This document shows positions 1 through 10,538 of a stretch of DNA of 64,000 nt, piece by piece. Position numbers and translations under genes: made by a program. Each line of letters begins with the position of its first letter. The first letter of the stretch is position 1. This DNA comes from Calothrix anomala FACHB-343. GTDB taxonomy: Bacteria; Cyanobacteriota; Cyanobacteriia; Cyanobacteriales; Nostocaceae. The DNA lies in the NCBI RefSeq assembly GCF_014696435.1, contig NZ_JACJQG010000015.1, positions 62,001 through 126,000 on the forward strand. The letters are read 5' to 3'. The notes below the pieces were generated by a model, which saw only the letters and a list, made by a program, of their open reading frames with translations, searched no databases and was not told the origin of the DNA.

Positions 1-393
1 ATTGGCATCGCTTACGCCTTTGTTCGCGGACAGTGGGTACAGTGTATTTCTCAATATTATGCAGAATTCCAAGGTCGTTCAGAAAAAGAACTGAAGTTAG
101 CTAGTATCGAGTTACGCAAACGCTCCTCAAATCATGCACAACAATCTAAAGTTTCGGCTAAGAATCTAGCAAAATTTTTAGCATCTGTAGAAGCACAAGA
201 AGCTCTACTAGAACAGCGTTCCTATGACGCAGAAGCCAGGGAAGTCTTTAGGGTAATTGAGGGTGGAAAAGCGACAGCAAGCCGCAACGAACAACCAAAG
301 GTTATTCAAGTTCCTTTTGAAAATACTGATACTCAAGTGGCTGAAGATGAAGCGCTCGTCCCAGAAACACTTGTAGTGTATGAGGAGTTTTAA
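1..393 (+). CDS. tnsB: TnsB/TniA-type transposase, C-terminal 130 residues (partial)
   Basis: An open frame enters from the left edge and ends at TAA 391-393. The visible 130 residues hold none of the DDE catalytic core. They match the C-terminal part of TnsB/Mu-transposase-type proteins of cyanobacterial Tn7-like elements: a short beta segment (IAYAFVRGQWVQC), a charged helical stretch including GRSEKELKLASIELRKR, a second helical stretch with SVEAQEALLEQR, and an acidic tail. In this family the C-terminal tail contacts the AAA+ partner TnsC. The next gene starts 2 bp after the stop, so the two are almost certainly translated from one mRNA. Identity rests mainly on context and on the tail pattern. 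Confidence 0.7.
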   Translation: MGIAYAFVRGQWVQCISQYYAEFQGRSEKELKLASIELRKRSSNHAQQSKVSAKNLAKFLASVEAQEALLEQRSYDAEAREVFRVIEGGKATASRNEQPKVIQVPFENTDTQVAEDEALVPETLVVYEEF

Positions 394-395
394 TT

Positions 396-1547
396 GTGAC
401 AAAATCTACTGGATTTCCGCTTGAACTCCTCACACGACCTGCTACAGAAAGGCTGGCTTACTTTGAGAATTACACCGTAGCGCATCCTCGGCTTAAAGAA
501 GTCTATGAAATTCTCATACGAACAATTGCCGAACCCGCAGGGGCATCATTTATTTTTGTTTATGGGCCTAGCGGTGTTGGTAAAACAACTTTACGATTGC
601 GTGTTGAGCAGAAATTAACAGAACTAGTATTACCATTACTGGAAAGCGACCGCGGTCGTGTTCCTGTTGTTGGTGTTGAAGCTATAGCCCCAGAATCAAG
701 AAACTTCAACTGGAAAGATTACTACACACGCGCTTTAATCGCCTTAGAAGAACCTTTAATCGATCACAAGTTTGATTACGGTGTGCGTGGTATCTCTCGC
801 GATAATTTTGGCAAAATCAATGTTGAGCCAAAAGTAGTTGCACCTGCTTTACGCAGAGCTTTAGAAAATGCTCTCATCCATCGTCATCCCGACGTATTTT
901 TTGTAGATGAAGCCCAACATTTTGGCAAGATGGCAAGCGGGTACAAGCTGCAAGATCAATTAGACTGCCTCAAATCTCTAGCAAATATGACAGGGATTTT
1001 ACACTGTCTATTAGGAACTTACGAATTACTGACATTCCGTAATTTAAGCGGTCAACTCTCACGCCGTAGCGTCGATATTCATTTCCGCCGTTATTGTGCT
1101 GAAAATCCAGAGGATGTACAAGCTTTCAAAAGTGTATTATTAACCTTCCAGCAGCAGATGCCGCTTGCAGAAGCTCCAGATTTAGTTAGTCATTGGGAAT
1201 ATTTTTACGAACGTACTTTAGGATGTGTTGGCATACTGAAAAATTGGTTAACACGCGCTCTTAAAGATGCTTTGGATCGAGAAGCAACAACAGTCACGCT
1301 CAAAGACTTACAAAAACGTGCTTGGTCGGTTGCTCAGTGTCAGAGAATGTTCAAGGAAATTCAAGAGGGTGAACGACAATTATCTGAAACAGAAACAGAT
1401 ATACAAAACTTACGCTCTGCATTAGGACTTGGAACAAAATCAATTGTGCTACCCGAAGAAACGCCAAAAACTACTCGTCCTCCAGGAAAGGTTGGTAAAC
1501 GCAAACCAAAAAGAGATCCCATCGGAGTGCAACAAGATGTTAGCTAG
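396..1547 (+). CDS. tnsC: AAA+ ATPase transposition regulator, TnsC/TniB family
   Basis: A 383-residue ATPase that in Tn7-like systems links the target selector (TniQ/TnsD) to the transposase. Walker A is GPSGVGKTT at residues 57-65 and Walker B is VFFVDEAQ around 168-174, followed by a sensor-like LLGTYELL. The start is GTG 396, 2 bp after the tnsB stop. The C-terminal tail is basic and Pro-rich (residues about 355-375). The length exceeds that of the TnsC of type V-K CRISPR-associated elements (about 270-280 residues), which argues against a simple V-K element. The last 11 bp overlap the tniQ start, so translation is likely coupled. Confidence 0.85.
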   Translation: MTKSTGFPLELLTRPATERLAYFENYTVAHPRLKEVYEILIRTIAEPAGASFIFVYGPSGVGKTTLRLRVEQKLTELVLPLLESDRGRVPVVGVEAIAPESRNFNWKDYYTRALIALEEPLIDHKFDYGVRGISRDNFGKINVEPKVVAPALRRALENALIHRHPDVFFVDEAQHFGKMASGYKLQDQLDCLKSLANMTGILHCLLGTYELLTFRNLSGQLSRRSVDIHFRRYCAENPEDVQAFKSVLLTFQQQMPLAEAPDLVSHWEYFYERTLGCVGILKNWLTRALKDALDREATTVTLKDLQKRAWSVAQCQRMFKEIQEGERQLSETETDIQNLRSALGLGTKSIVLPEETPKTTRPPGKVGKRKPKRDPIGVQQDVS

Positions 1548-2919
1548 TGCATTAGAAACATACGAATCTTGGGATTTAAAAAAGCTTTCTATTCCATCTC
1601 GTAGTCGCTTGTATCAATTACAGCCTGTTGGTATTGGTACTCCGTTGGTAGAAAGCTTAACTGGTTATATATCTCGGCTAGCAGAAGCCCATTGTGTAAC
1701 CCCAAAAGCTTTAATATCCAGAGAACTTGTGTCCTTTATACCCAAGACTTACAAAACTACAAATCTTTTTGAAATGCGAAGTTTAACTGGGGCACTCAAT
1801 GGAATAGGTACGATGGCTCTTGATTTAGTTACAGTGCTAGAGTCATTAACTCTACGTAGTGATTTGCGTTTTCTCTCTCTATTAACATGGGCTGGTATCT
1901 TTCCCCAAAGGAGATTACTTCGTGCTAGACGAGCTTGGTGTCCCTACTGTTATGAGGAGTGGTATTCCTCGAAAGACAAAGTAATTTACGAACCCTTAAT
2001 TTGGTTTTTTGAGGCAGTTAAATTTTGTCATTGGCACAATCAGTCTTTATGCCAACAATGTCCTCATTGCCAACGACAGCTTCCTCCTCTTGCGTCTTAT
2101 TCGAGACCAGGTTATTGCCCCTATTGCTTAGAATGGCTGGGCGTTACTGATAATTACCCATTTTCCGATAAAGCCCTACCGAGTAAGGAAGAGATTATCT
2201 GGCAAAAGTGGGTTATCAAGACTATTGGAGAATTAATTGCTAATACCCCTCACCTACCAAAACCTTTGCAAAGGGAAATAGTTGCTCAAGCGTTCTGTAG
2301 ATACGTAAACCAATTTACTGAAGGAAACACAGCTGCTTTTGCCCGTATGCTCGACATTCCCAAAAACAAGGTTTGGATGTGGCAGATGGGAAAAGTCTTG
2401 CCAGAACTGAATGTAATTTTGAAGATCTGTTTTACTCTTCAGGTATCTGTGCTGGATTTCTTTACTCAAGAGACTGTTAAGGAGAATTATAGTCAATCTC
2501 CTGCTATACCTCAAAACCAACTAGGAGATAGCATTACAAAAAAGCTTGAAGTAAAATTCGATAGCGATCGCACTCAACAGTTACTTGAAGATTTGCTTCA
2601 AAATAATCAACAACCGTTACCTATGACGGTAGTAGCCAAACGCCTTGGATATCCTAAGCGAATTCTTTATAGACATTTCCCAGAGCTATGCCGAGCAATT
2701 TCAGCCCAGTATGTTAAGTATATGAAAGAATCTCGCATCAAACGAATTGAACAGTGCTGTGAGGAGGTAAAACAAGCGGTTAAGCAATTTTACACTGAAG
2801 GTATTTATCCTAGTGAAGCAGCTATTTCAAGGCTATTGGCTAAACCTGGATGTTTTCGTGATAAAGAAGTTCGCAATGCCCTTAGAGCAGCACGAAGAGA
2901 AATTGGTTTGGAACCATAA
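1537..2919 (+). CDS. tniQ: TniQ/TnsD-type target-site selection protein
   Basis: A 460-residue protein starting at ATG 1537 inside the end of tnsC. An in-frame extension back to TTG 1429 is open but would overlap tnsC by 119 bp and is not used here. The TniQ core is clear: CPYC at 135-138, CHWH at 164-167, CPHC at 175-178 and CPYC at 194-197, forming zinc-binding pairs, with the typical GYCPYCLEWLG end. Beyond it lie about 260 further residues with a helix-turn-helix-like segment near 260-310 and a second near 370-400. Short TniQ proteins work with CRISPR effectors, whereas long TnsD-like ones bind an attachment site directly. The length and the adjacent tRNA-Leu suggest the second mode; this is inference. 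Confidence 0.85.
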   Translation: MLASALETYESWDLKKLSIPSRSRLYQLQPVGIGTPLVESLTGYISRLAEAHCVTPKALISRELVSFIPKTYKTTNLFEMRSLTGALNGIGTMALDLVTVLESLTLRSDLRFLSLLTWAGIFPQRRLLRARRAWCPYCYEEWYSSKDKVIYEPLIWFFEAVKFCHWHNQSLCQQCPHCQRQLPPLASYSRPGYCPYCLEWLGVTDNYPFSDKALPSKEEIIWQKWVIKTIGELIANTPHLPKPLQREIVAQAFCRYVNQFTEGNTAAFARMLDIPKNKVWMWQMGKVLPELNVILKICFTLQVSVLDFFTQETVKENYSQSPAIPQNQLGDSITKKLEVKFDSDRTQQLLEDLLQNNQQPLPMTVVAKRLGYPKRILYRHFPELCRAISAQYVKYMKESRIKRIEQCCEEVKQAVKQFYTEGIYPSEAAISRLLAKPGCFRDKEVRNALRAARREIGLEP

Positions 2920-3267
2920 CTTTGCCACTGTTTATTTGTGACTTAAAGGAAAAGATTGCCAAAAATTAAAGGATAAGCTTGCCGAACCTATAGCCAGACT
3001 GGTTTCGTGGTCAAATACCCGTCTTGCGAGAGTGCGATCGCAAAGCATAAAAATCCTCCAAAAGCCTACATTTAGCGTGGGACTCGCGGCAGACTTATTC
3101 TTGAATGAAATTTGACATTAATTCAGAATTAATCGACATAACAAGAGTTTCAGCCTTTACTGCGGCAAGCTTTTACTTTAAAAAACGGCAAACAATTCCT
3201 TTAAGTCACATTATTGGAAACATAAGCTTGCCGTTGCGGCAAAGTTATGGTTCCAGTCACAGTGACA
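2909..3267. repeat. Transposon end with opposed transposase-binding repeats
   Basis: No gene lies between tniQ and the tRNA. The stretch holds two direct 23-bp repeats at 2938-2960 and 2961-2983 with core TTAAAGGAnAAGnTTGCC, and inverted copies at 3164-3185 and 3187-3209. An 18-bp perfect inverted repeat, tggaaccataactttgcc, sits at 2909-2926 and 3238-3255; the left copy includes the tniQ stop codon. The outermost bases, read from 3267 on the minus strand, are TGTCACTGTGAC. Repeated sites of 20-23 bp next to a TGT terminus are typical TnsB-binding arrays. The opposed orientation of the two left sites is unusual. Confidence 0.65.
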
Positions 3268-3292
3268 AAAAACTGATAATTTAATTTTTTCA

Positions 3293-3673
3293 TGGGGGTG
3301 GAGGGACTTGAACCCACACGACCTTTTACGATCAACGGATTTTCATTCTCTCGCAGCTTTCGCTACTGCCTAATAGTTTTCATAACTCTCGGCTTTGAGA
3401 ATTGGACTCTCCCTTTACCCTCGACTTTAACGTTAGGGTAGCTCCCGTCGGGTCTCTGCACCTTCCCGCAATCAGAGATTTTGAGTTTTCAATTTTGGAT
3501 TGTCACCAATCAAAAATTAAAAATCATTATCTGTTCTTGTGGGCTTGGCTCAGGATTGCCATGTCTGTAATCAGATTTAGGTTTCCCTGAGTTTGAGAGC
3601 TTACACTTACAAGATTTCTCTAGCAAGGCTCAGTTTTCTAAGTCCGTAGCGTCTACCATTCCGCCACACCCCC
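3293..3673 (-). tRNA. trnL-UAA: tRNA-Leu(UAA) interrupted by a group I intron
   Basis: On the minus strand the 5' exon is 3640-3673 (34 nt, acceptor GGGGGTG) and the 3' exon is 3293-3343 (51 nt, ending CACCCCC plus discriminator A; CCA is not encoded). Joined, they give an anticodon loop CTTAAAA with anticodon UAA; the long variable arm (GACGATC-like) is that of a class II leucine tRNA. The exons are interrupted between anticodon positions 1 and 2, the site known for cyanobacterial and plastid tRNA-Leu introns. The 3' end of the tRNA faces the transposon end 25 bp away. Confidence 0.95.
3344..3639 (-). ncRNA. Self-splicing group I intron in tRNA-Leu(UAA)
   Basis: A 296-nt intron after the U of the anticodon, ending in G. 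Conserved core elements are seen on the minus strand: a P3-P4 region with TGAGCC, AATCCTGAGCCAAG (P-Q type), AGGTGCAGAGACCCGACGGGAGCTACCC (R-S type, positions about 3436-3463) and AGAGTCCAATTCTCAAAGCC near the 3' end. It is longer than the 249-nt intron known from Anabaena; the extra length sits in a P6b-like arm made of A/T-rich imperfect repeats around 3475-3535. It encodes no endonuclease. Confidence 0.9.
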
Positions 3674-4135
3674 CTAATTTTGAGTTAGGAGTTGATTTGA
3701 TTGAGAGGTAGTAAATACTCTCTCATACATTTCAGCATTAATTACGTTTTTTGTGCAACTAGATTTAATAATTTTGTTCACAAAAAGCAATTGTACTGAA
3801 TTGGTGACTATGCCAAATAGTTGTTGAACTAACAACAGTATTTACTAGCTTTTTTGCGATCGCCACCTAAGAGTAGCATCCCTATTTAATTAGGTAGCTT
3901 TAACTCCTTTCGCAAAAGCCTTAACAAAATTAACACATCAAATTATGAATTGCAAGTACCACCGCCAAATAATTTGTCGATAACAATATCTAATACCAAC
4001 CCCAAGAAAATTATATGCCCCATGCCCCATGCCCCATGCCCCATCCCCAATGCCCCATTATCCATATTTCGCCATTCAGCCTATGATGGAAAATAGATGT
4101 AATCAACCATCTTGTCTATCACAGAAGCGAAAATT
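3674..4135. other. Intergenic region with (ATGCCCC)n tandem heptamers
   Basis: A 462-bp spacer between the divergent tRNA-Leu and ndhL. It must hold both promoters; I cannot assign them with certainty. At 4015-4058 there is a run of about six ATGCCCC heptamers, partly degenerate, one of the short tandem repeat families spread through this window. No open frame of convincing quality is present. Confidence 0.6.
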
Positions 4136-9488: not shown

Positions 9489-10538
9489 TTAACCTAACCA
9501 CTCAGGATTTTTTGCTGTACTATCAAATTGACTAGTAGTCTTAAATAGCTCATACTGACCTTTTAACGCGACTTCACGAGTCCGATTGAGCAGTTCCCTG
9601 ACTTGTTGTTGACTCATTGGTTGAAAAGTACGTACTGCCTCAAATGCTTGGTTGAGAATTTCCATACTTTCCATACCAGTAATTACCGTTGAAGTGGGCA
9701 AATTTATCGCGTAGTGAAGACATTCTATGGGTTTTACTGTATTACTCTTGAGAATATTTTGGTCACCCATTGATTTCATACCCAATACACCGATTTCATC
9801 TTTGACAAGTCTGGGTAAAACTTGACGTTCAAAACTCCGGAAGTGGGCATCCATAACGTTTAACGGCATCTGCACTGCATCAAAGCGGAAGTTATTTTGC
9901 GCCGCAACATCCAGCATTCTTAAATGCACTAACGGATCTTTGTGTCCAGTAAAGCCAATGTAGCGAACCTTTCCCGCTTTTTGTGCCTCTAATACAGCTT
10001 CCATTGCGCCACCGGGGGCAAATATGCGGTCTGGGTCTTCCATACGGATGATTTCATGATGCTGTAATAAATCAATCCGGTCTGTTTGTAAGCGTTTGAG
10101 AGAATCGTTAATTTGCTGAGTAGCGGCTTGTTTAGTGCGTCCGTCAATTTTGGTCATCAAGAAAGCTTTTTGTCGGTAACCGTCTTTTAAGGCTTTCCCC
10201 ATGCGAATTTCACTACCGCCGTTATGGTAGTCCCAGCTATTATCCATGAAATTAATACCGCGATCGATGGCAGTGCGGACAAGGCGGATACCTTCTTCTT
10301 CTTCTTTTGGTCTACCAATATGGTGACCGCCTAAACCAATAACAGATATTTTTTCGCCCGTGCGTCCTAAGGTTCTGTAGATCATTTCGCCGCTTCTTGT
10401 CTGGCTTGTTGTTTGAGTGGAAGCTGGTCTAGTTTGGGCTGAGGCTTCGGAAAACAATGCTTCTGCACCTGCTAATCCGAGTGCAACTAAACCAGAAGTA
10501 GAAGCTACTTTAAATAAATCTCGTCTGCTAATATCCAC
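9489..10538 (-). CDS. Tat-exported aldo/keto reductase
   Basis: 349 residues. The twin-arginine signal SRRDLFK (Arg5, Arg6) is followed by a hydrophobic stretch and SEASAQ, a likely cleavage site near residue 34. The mature part is a TIM-barrel aldo/keto reductase that uses NAD(P)H; the catalytic tetrad is present as Asp99, Tyr104, Lys130 and His160. The start YRTLGRTGEKISVIGLGG is typical. The substrate is unknown. A Tat signal means that the cofactor is likely inserted before export. The gene stands alone. Confidence 0.9.
   Translation of the reverse strand: MDISRRDLFKVASTSGLVALGLAGAEALFSEASAQTRPASTQTTSQTRSGEMIYRTLGRTGEKISVIGLGGHHIGRPKEEEEGIRLVRTAIDRGINFMDNSWDYHNGGSEIRMGKALKDGYRQKAFLMTKIDGRTKQAATQQINDSLKRLQTDRIDLLQHHEIIRMEDPDRIFAPGGAMEAVLEAQKAGKVRYIGFTGHKDPLVHLRMLDVAAQNNFRFDAVQMPLNVMDAHFRSFERQVLPRLVKDEIGVLGMKSMGDQNILKSNTVKPIECLHYAINLPTSTVITGMESMEILNQAFEAVRTFQPMSQQQVRELLNRTREVALKGQYELFKTTSQFDSTAKNPEWLG

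Follow-up and report, generated by a model that had tools for sequence, protein, structure and literature searches.

CRISPR (clustered regularly interspaced short palindromic repeats)-associated transposons (CASTs) of type I-B2 are already known, as is the homing of TnsD proteins to tRNA genes. PmcCAST is the type I-B2 CAST of the Peltigera membranacea cyanobiont 210A (listed as Tn7744 in PMC11406308), and a promiscuous exchange of TniQ partners has been described in this branch (PMC11406308). According to PMC10293859, the TnsD of CyCAST, when studied in E. coli, directs insertion to a position approximately 30-33 nt beyond a tRNA-Leu gene, and CyCAST and PmcCAST are ~50% identical in TnsAB and TnsC and ~30% in TniQ and TnsD. 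Here, we analysed a stretch of 64,000 nucleotides from Calothrix anomala FACHB-343 (contig NZ_JACJQG010000015.1, positions 62,001 to 126,000; hereafter the window), which begins inside a Tn7-like element and carries the right end of this element next to an intron-bearing tRNA-Leu(UAA) gene (trnL). We propose that the element is a PmcCAST-like I-B2 CAST, which homed into trnL(UAA) via its own TnsD by reading the 3' part of the tRNA gene, and we assign this reading a probability of roughly 0.87. Sequence comparisons point to it in several ways, namely through the ends, target duplication and gene content of the element, a near-constant spacing to tRNA genes, a target that tracks TnsD, and a close TnsD relative whose target trnL(UAA) is intronless. 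What the analysis adds is a clean natural experiment, in which the same machine with a different TnsD is found at a different tRNA gene, and one TnsD lineage occurs at both intron-bearing and intronless trnL(UAA) genes.

The element, its ends and its genes

The host genome was searched and the contig (C52; window position = C52 position − 62,000) was read leftward from the window. The element spans C52:37025-65261 and is 28,237 bp long. Its left end, TGTGACTTTAACC.., begins at C52:37025 with TGTGAC outermost, and the last base of its right end, ..GTTCCAGTCACA (..GTCACA), is window position 3261. The 5-bp sequence GTGAC is found directly outside each end (window 3262-3266 and C52:37020-37024), so that the element has the defined ends and 5-bp target duplication of a Tn7-like transposon. 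A flank of 26 bp (window 3267-3292), which is hardly conserved among insertions, separates the duplication from A73 of the tRNA at window 3293. A sequence-only reading of this DNA had rightly recognized an element end near an intron-bearing tRNA-Leu gene, but had set its outermost base at 3267; we rejected this position, as in relatives a variable 5-mer comes directly after ..TCACA, placing the end at 3261. The leftward extension, which had been suggested as a check, revealed the other end, the GTGAC duplication and cas genes. Both ends were checked in two elements only, the present one and an element in another genome of the same genus (G359). Chance is a very unlikely explanation for the arrangement, because related elements have ends of this kind at a similar distance from their tRNA genes and because the G359 element has a perfect 5-bp duplication, TAAAT, at both of its ends.

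Starting from the left end, the element contains an open reading frame (ORF) of 378 codons, which in our reading resembles a pentapeptide-repeat protein without a profile match, and two small ORFs, followed by cas6, cas8, cas7 and cas5. After the cas genes come a CRISPR array, type I restriction-modification genes and a gene for a 1,334-aa methylase-ATPase protein, and further cargo codes for a 530-aa ATPase and a 695-aa P-loop/WYL protein. Beyond these genes lies a reversed small tniQ, followed by tnsAB, tnsC and tnsD, all of which point at trnL. The tnsAB gene starts at C52:59697 (L005:17697) and its 3' end occupies window 1-393 on the plus strand; tnsC (window 396-1547, plus strand) codes for a 383-aa AAA+ regulator, and tnsD (window 1537-2919, plus strand, ATG at 1537) for a long TniQ protein of 460 aa, the proposed tRNA-Leu(UAA) selector. 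The tnsC and tniQ genes and the 3' end of tnsB named in the sequence-only reading are hence all present, with tnsB being part of the fused tnsAB. Pfam matches to the N- and C-terminal TnsA domains, rve, AAA_22/TniB and TniQ make up the protein set of a Tn7-like element.

For comparison we used PDB entries 8fcu, 8v32 and 9bw1, which we take to be structures of PmcCAST. Their assignment draws on PMC12585508 and on TnsC chains common to the entries. The element has features expected of a type I-B2 CAST, a fused TnsAB of 898 aa, of which the first 768 residues are close to 9bw1_M, and two TniQ proteins, a 335-aa TniQ (693 bits to 8fcu_P) and the 460-aa TnsD, which is related to 8v32_J; TnsC is close to the TnsC chain 8fcu_Q. 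The cas genes match Cas6b2, Cas8a/b, Cas7b and Cas5b profiles, the composition of a I-B Cascade, and the array consists of six 36-nt repeats and five spacers of 35-39 nt. PADLOC detected neither a Cas1, Cas2, Cas3 or Cas4 profile nor a Cas12k profile in 17 of the 19 element ORFs of at least 100 aa; the two unscanned ORFs (L005:4434-4748 and 9851-10156) overlap longer genes, and cas8 was scanned over its first 410 codons only. Type V-K was rejected on account of the missing Cas12k profile in the ORFs scanned and of the lack of a trnL-matching spacer. We therefore regard it as practically certain that the element is a type I-B2, PmcCAST-like CAST with real ends. Most likely, it would have two pathways, homing by the long TniQ and a Cascade pathway with the small TniQ.

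The right end is itself interrupted. Its inner part (GGAACCATAACTTTGCC, window 2909-2936, plus strand) overlaps the tnsD stop codon and contains an inverted match to window 3238-3255, and its terminal part (..GCGGCAAAGTTATGGTTCCAGTCACA) was placed at window 3211-3261 by comparison with relatives. Between the two lies an insert of 274 bp (window 2937-3210, TGTGACTTAAAGG..CCTTTAAGTCACA) with Tn7-like inverted ends and a TTATT duplication, which is not found in the same place in the relatives compared; the end-like sequence there belongs to the insert. We read it as a mini-element resembling a miniature inverted-repeat transposable element (MITE), and no second copy was found in the genome at E 0.001.

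TnsD, tRNA genes and target choice

Searching 388 genomes of the order with TnsD gave 62 with a match at 1e-20, and a three-row alignment search of 386 genomes of the phylum gave 10 at 1e-60. Contigs from GTDB added 24 loci, 12 of which were examined for tRNA genes, the remaining 12 matching the N part only. For 37 of the 53 C-terminal TnsD matches examined, a tRNA gene is located no more than 1,300 bp downstream, and the tRNAs concerned are Leu(UAA), Leu(UAG), Val(GAC), Val(UAC), Ala(GGC), Thr(UGU), Pro(GGG) and Lys(UUU). A count of the geometry in which the end closest to the expected position was picked is biased; a rule that does not use the distance was applied instead, which leaves 13 of the 37 tRNA-linked loci uncalled. 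With this rule, 24 of the 24 callable ends are 44-48 nt before the T-loop, a near-constant distance that holds for Leu(UAA), Leu(UAG), Val(GAC), Val(UAC), Ala, Thr, Pro and Lys genes. The tRNA-linked relatives also have tnsD nearest to the tRNA gene, and the same gene order in the present element is not the peculiarity it had been taken for. At five loci (L013, L015, L016, L021 and L022), tandem TniQ/TnsD gene pairs precede the tRNA-side end, the upstream copy being mostly an open frame of ~525-530 aa (439 in G111).

The G359 element provides the clearest comparison. It is not described in the papers examined. TnsAB, TnsC and TniQ are 92, 97 and 93% identical to those of the present element and Cas6/8/7/5 89-95%, whereas the two TnsD proteins are only 52% identical in the N part and 42% in the C part, and the G359 element is inserted at tRNA-Val(GAC). 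The DNA of the two elements is 93% identical through tnsC up to window 1718, and identity drops thereafter. Similarly, the likeness to elements at tRNA-Val(UAC) in G374, G384 and on host contig C141 (91, 89 and 87%, respectively) ends at window 1685, that is, likeness to the Val-type elements is lost at ~1685-1718 within tnsD, while elements of the Leu(UAA) group remain alike up to window 2926-2936.

The same picture emerged from 13 loci at which both TnsC and TnsD have long matches and which form 78 pairs, 15 of them with a common target. The target was common in 11 of 11 pairs with a TnsD identity of at least 60%, as against 12 of 44 pairs with a TnsC identity of at least 70%. A TnsD tree was calculated for 29 of the 35 labelled loci, after six partial proteins had been dropped, and without the unlabelled loci L058, L097 (a repeat of L011) and L125 and loci lacking a tRNA. 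The seven Leu(UAA) TnsDs of the tree lie on one side of a branch with a support of 90/92, which is present in 86% of the bootstrap trees, and the target labels require 8 changes on the tree, compared with a possible minimum of 6 and a mean of 17.5 after shuffling. As judged from these sequences, target choice follows TnsD and not TnsC, and tnsD behaves as an exchangeable cassette, in that an exchange within its first 50-60 codons would have given a PmcCAST-type element a new tRNA target. Going further, we tentatively suggest, at somewhat less than even odds, that TnsD is a plug-in address label, by which a nearly unchanged CAST machine has been redirected between the genes for Leu(UAA), Val(GAC) and Val(UAC); the T-loop would act as the common ruler and the acceptor and T-stems would provide the identity, which would in principle make every tRNA gene a possible address.

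The host genome also contains pieces of a second I-B2 CAST, at L009:8690-10804 (C141) and L119:2621-6944 (C18). On C141, a PmcCAST-like TnsD split over two frames adjoins tRNA-Val(UAC), and on C18 a series of ORFs sized like cas6-8-7-5, a likeness of size only, precedes an array that is 71% alike to that of the present element.

Proposed mechanism and its alternatives

The tRNA-Leu(UAA) gene occupies window 3293-3673 on the minus strand and contains a group I intron (Rfam, 71.2 bits). Following the general rule for intron borders, reading of the anticodon loop divides the gene into a 3' exon of 51 bp (window 3293-3343), which is the proposed TnsD recognition site, the intron (window 3344-3639, with the Rfam match at 3386-3649) and the 5' exon (window 3640-3673), all on the minus strand. 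ARAGORN in its plain mode misses the gene, and with introns allowed detects it under the name Ser(aga); we read it as Leu(UAA) from the anticodon loop and from relatives. Four intron-bearing trnL genes, those of the host genome (G000) and of L094, L095 and L096, were called tRNA-Ser(aga) by ARAGORN and were relabelled Leu(UAA) on the basis of exon identity and the Rfam group I match. With up to three mismatches allowed, the 9.24-Mb genome has a single occurrence of the 31 bp with which the 3' exon begins on the flank side.

TnsD is homologous to 8v32_J over its full length, and the two are closely alike only over the first ~50 residues. Its AlphaFold2 model has a mean pLDDT (predicted local distance difference test) of 56 and is usable only for residues ~245-310 and 340-459; in a Foldseek search with this model, 8v32_J was the top match (E 7e-19) and the remaining matches were weak. 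Pfam helix-turn-helix matches in the C part fall below the cut-offs. By analogy with the homologue 8v32, a TnsD-TnsC-DNA complex, and with CyCAST, we infer that TnsD would bind the tRNA gene directly. The C-terminal part of TnsD, with its helix-turn-helix-like stretches, would bind the 3' part of the gene, presumably the 3' strand of the acceptor stem and the T-arm inside the 51-bp 3' exon. TnsC would then be recruited toward the flank, and TnsAB would insert the element ~26 bp beyond the tRNA 3' end irrespective of the flank sequence. The intron, which starts ~80 bp from the insertion point, would not be read. The small TniQ and the Cascade would serve a separate, putative guide-directed pathway to other targets.

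It is very likely that TnsD rather than a guide placed the element, although a Cascade, a small TniQ and an array are all present and V-K CASTs use guides against tRNA genes (PMC11406308). For the Cascade to have done so, a tRNA-Leu guide would have to be lost since, or a short delocalised CRISPR RNA be used as in V-K elements; one 16-nt match between the element and the trnL intron could be quoted in favour of this idea, which we consider very improbable. None of the five spacers matches trnL, the longest match to the trnL region (window 3262-3760) being 8 nt, and the target goes with TnsD among relatives. The sequence-only reading had named a Cascade with a tRNA-Leu-matching spacer as the mark of guide direction; the Cascade is there and such a spacer is not. 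Its view that the long TniQ recognizes tRNA-Leu directly and without CRISPR guidance is supported for this site, but the element as such is not free of CRISPR components, as it carries a I-B2 Cascade, an array and a small TniQ. When the array was searched against its own genome at E 0.001, the only other match was one on C18 that is 71% alike, which we read as a second array, and searches of the spacers against plasmids and phages gave one match each (E 4 and 5) and no credible target. In the trnL-linked element of G370 (G370:C24:22644-31299), TnsAB, TnsC and an 83% identical TnsD are present at the same spacing, and the 40 kb searched, within which the left end was not found, gave no match to Cas6/8/7/5 and none to a separate TniQ of the small kind. 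The Cascade of the present element is therefore not required to account for homing to trnL. Two ORFs of 641 and 493 aa lie ahead of tnsAB in G370 and perhaps represent another, uncharacterised partner system.

About equally improbable is recognition of the group I intron by TnsD, alone or jointly with the exon, even though the intron is present in all but one of the eight Leu(UAA) sites under comparison. Close TnsDs are found at intron-bearing trnL genes in Nostoc sp. S4 (88%), Atlanticothrix silvestris (86%), Spirirestis rafaelensis (89%) and Anabaena subtropica FACHB-260 (83%, taken as the same record as G370), and a remnant in G111 and a distant relative in G169 each lie at an intron-bearing trnL as well. 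In G021, however, a 78% identical TnsD is located at the same spacing, 26 bp plus the duplication, from a tRNA-Leu(UAA) gene that is intronless and the sole copy found in that genome, which largely answers by comparison the question of exon or intron raised in the sequence-only reading. The only other genome of this family in the set, G048, has the same intronless gene (98%) with a Tn7-type end sequence ~27 + 5 bp beyond it, and no tns or cas match was found in the 1.5 kb examined on the end-sequence side of trnL. The intronless gene and the like-placed end in G048 suggest that the intron was absent before the insertion. Other TnsDs of the family are found at intronless tRNA genes with the same geometry. 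In the eight Leu(UAA) sites, the first 31 exon bp have a mean pairwise identity of 0.96. In Tn7, TnsD binds from +23 to +58 relative to the centre of the duplication, and insertion occurs ~25 bp beyond the binding site (PMC2918618). Transferred to the present locus, this interval would correspond to window 3287-3322, within the flank and the 3' exon and outside the intron, which begins at 3344. It is thus most probable that the 3' exon suffices and that the intron is not read. Our literature search found no paper on the intron question; the closest survey, Hsieh and Peters 2023, was outside that search.

The least probable alternative, that TnsD does not home and that trnL was reached by chance or by recombination with an older resident element, could appeal to the pile-up of other Tn7-like ends that we read by trnL in G000, G448, G381, G458 and G455, but conflicts with the perfect 5-bp duplication, which marks direct transposition, and with a spacing that is kept in several genera despite unlike flanks.

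Several observations weigh against homing by TnsD through the 3' exon. There is no tRNA gene within 1,300 bp for 16 of the 53 C-terminal matches, comprising 6 upstream copies of a TniQ/TnsD pair, 2 matches at contig ends and 8 for which there is no explanation, and in the GTDB set a tRNA is present in 5 of 13 rows and absent in 8 of 13 (partly the same loci). The pairs among the 13 loci are not independent of each other. On the TnsD tree, the Val(GAC), Val(UAC) and Ala labels each require more than one origin, Val(UAC) is hardly clustered, with 77 of 500 shuffles giving a value as low, and the Leu(UAA) row L023 sits on a long, unsure branch. G021 is the only intact locus at which a close TnsD adjoins an intronless trnL, and its intron may have been lost after insertion. 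The exons are conserved for tRNA function regardless, so that their conservation alone proves nothing, and the 31-bp flanks of the eight sites are slightly more alike (0.33) than shuffled ones (0.29, standard deviation 0.014). Finally, window 3613-3628 in the trnL intron matches the coding sequence of the 695-aa gene of the element exactly over 16 nt (E 0.003); this is probably chance, given that it lies ~350 bp from the insertion and no repeat was seen there.

The trnL site seems to have been landed in repeatedly. No fully empty trnL site was found in the same genus. G448, whose trnL region is 97-98% identical, has 14 bp in place of C52:31285-65220 and retains only a relic of a like end between trnL and a tetratricopeptide repeat (TPR) gene, and G381, G458 and G455 show another end-like sequence; the remaining genomes with a related trnL region were inspected at the flank only. 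In the host genome, the left end of the element and the TPR gene are separated by another ~5.7 kb (C52:31281-37019, L006:9281-15019), which holds restriction genes, and a block like it is cargo within the G359 element. The sequence at the border of this host segment, TTGTCACGACGACAG..TTTGTCACTGTACA, resembles V-K CAST ends, and the segment may stem from an earlier Tn7-like insertion at this trnL. Palindrome-like sequences of the TGTACAGTGAC..GTCACTGTACA type occur ~34-45 nt past trnL in L085, L086 and L087 (G381, G458 and G455, respectively). The ORF lists show no obvious transposase near them (no profile search was made), and we read these sequences as relics or MITEs at the same landing site.

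Comparison with known systems

The natural experiment described here opens the reading of tRNA genes by TnsD to direct tests with PmcCAST tools that already exist, and an exchange of TnsD suggests itself as a way to redirect insertion between tRNA genes. E. coli Tn7 has glmS as its target, possesses separate TnsA and TnsB proteins and lacks CRISPR genes. The present element shares with it a selector of the TnsD family, a 5-bp duplication and recognition inside a conserved gene, but differs in that its genes read toward the target, with tnsD being nearest. With CyCAST and type I-D CASTs it has in common a separate small TniQ and a large TnsD (PMC10293859), whereas these systems have a I-D Cascade with adaptation genes. 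The greatest likeness is to PmcCAST, with 800 bits over 383 residues for TnsC, 1626 bits over the first 768 residues of TnsAB, 693 bits over 329 residues for TniQ and 806 bits over 393 of the first 410 residues of Cas8. TnsD is homologous to that of PmcCAST along the full length as well, but in the Foldseek alignment the two are only ~41% identical and they are alike mainly over the first ~50 residues. The test plasmid of PmcCAST carries a tRNA-Val (PMC10293859), whereas the present target is tRNA-Leu(UAA).

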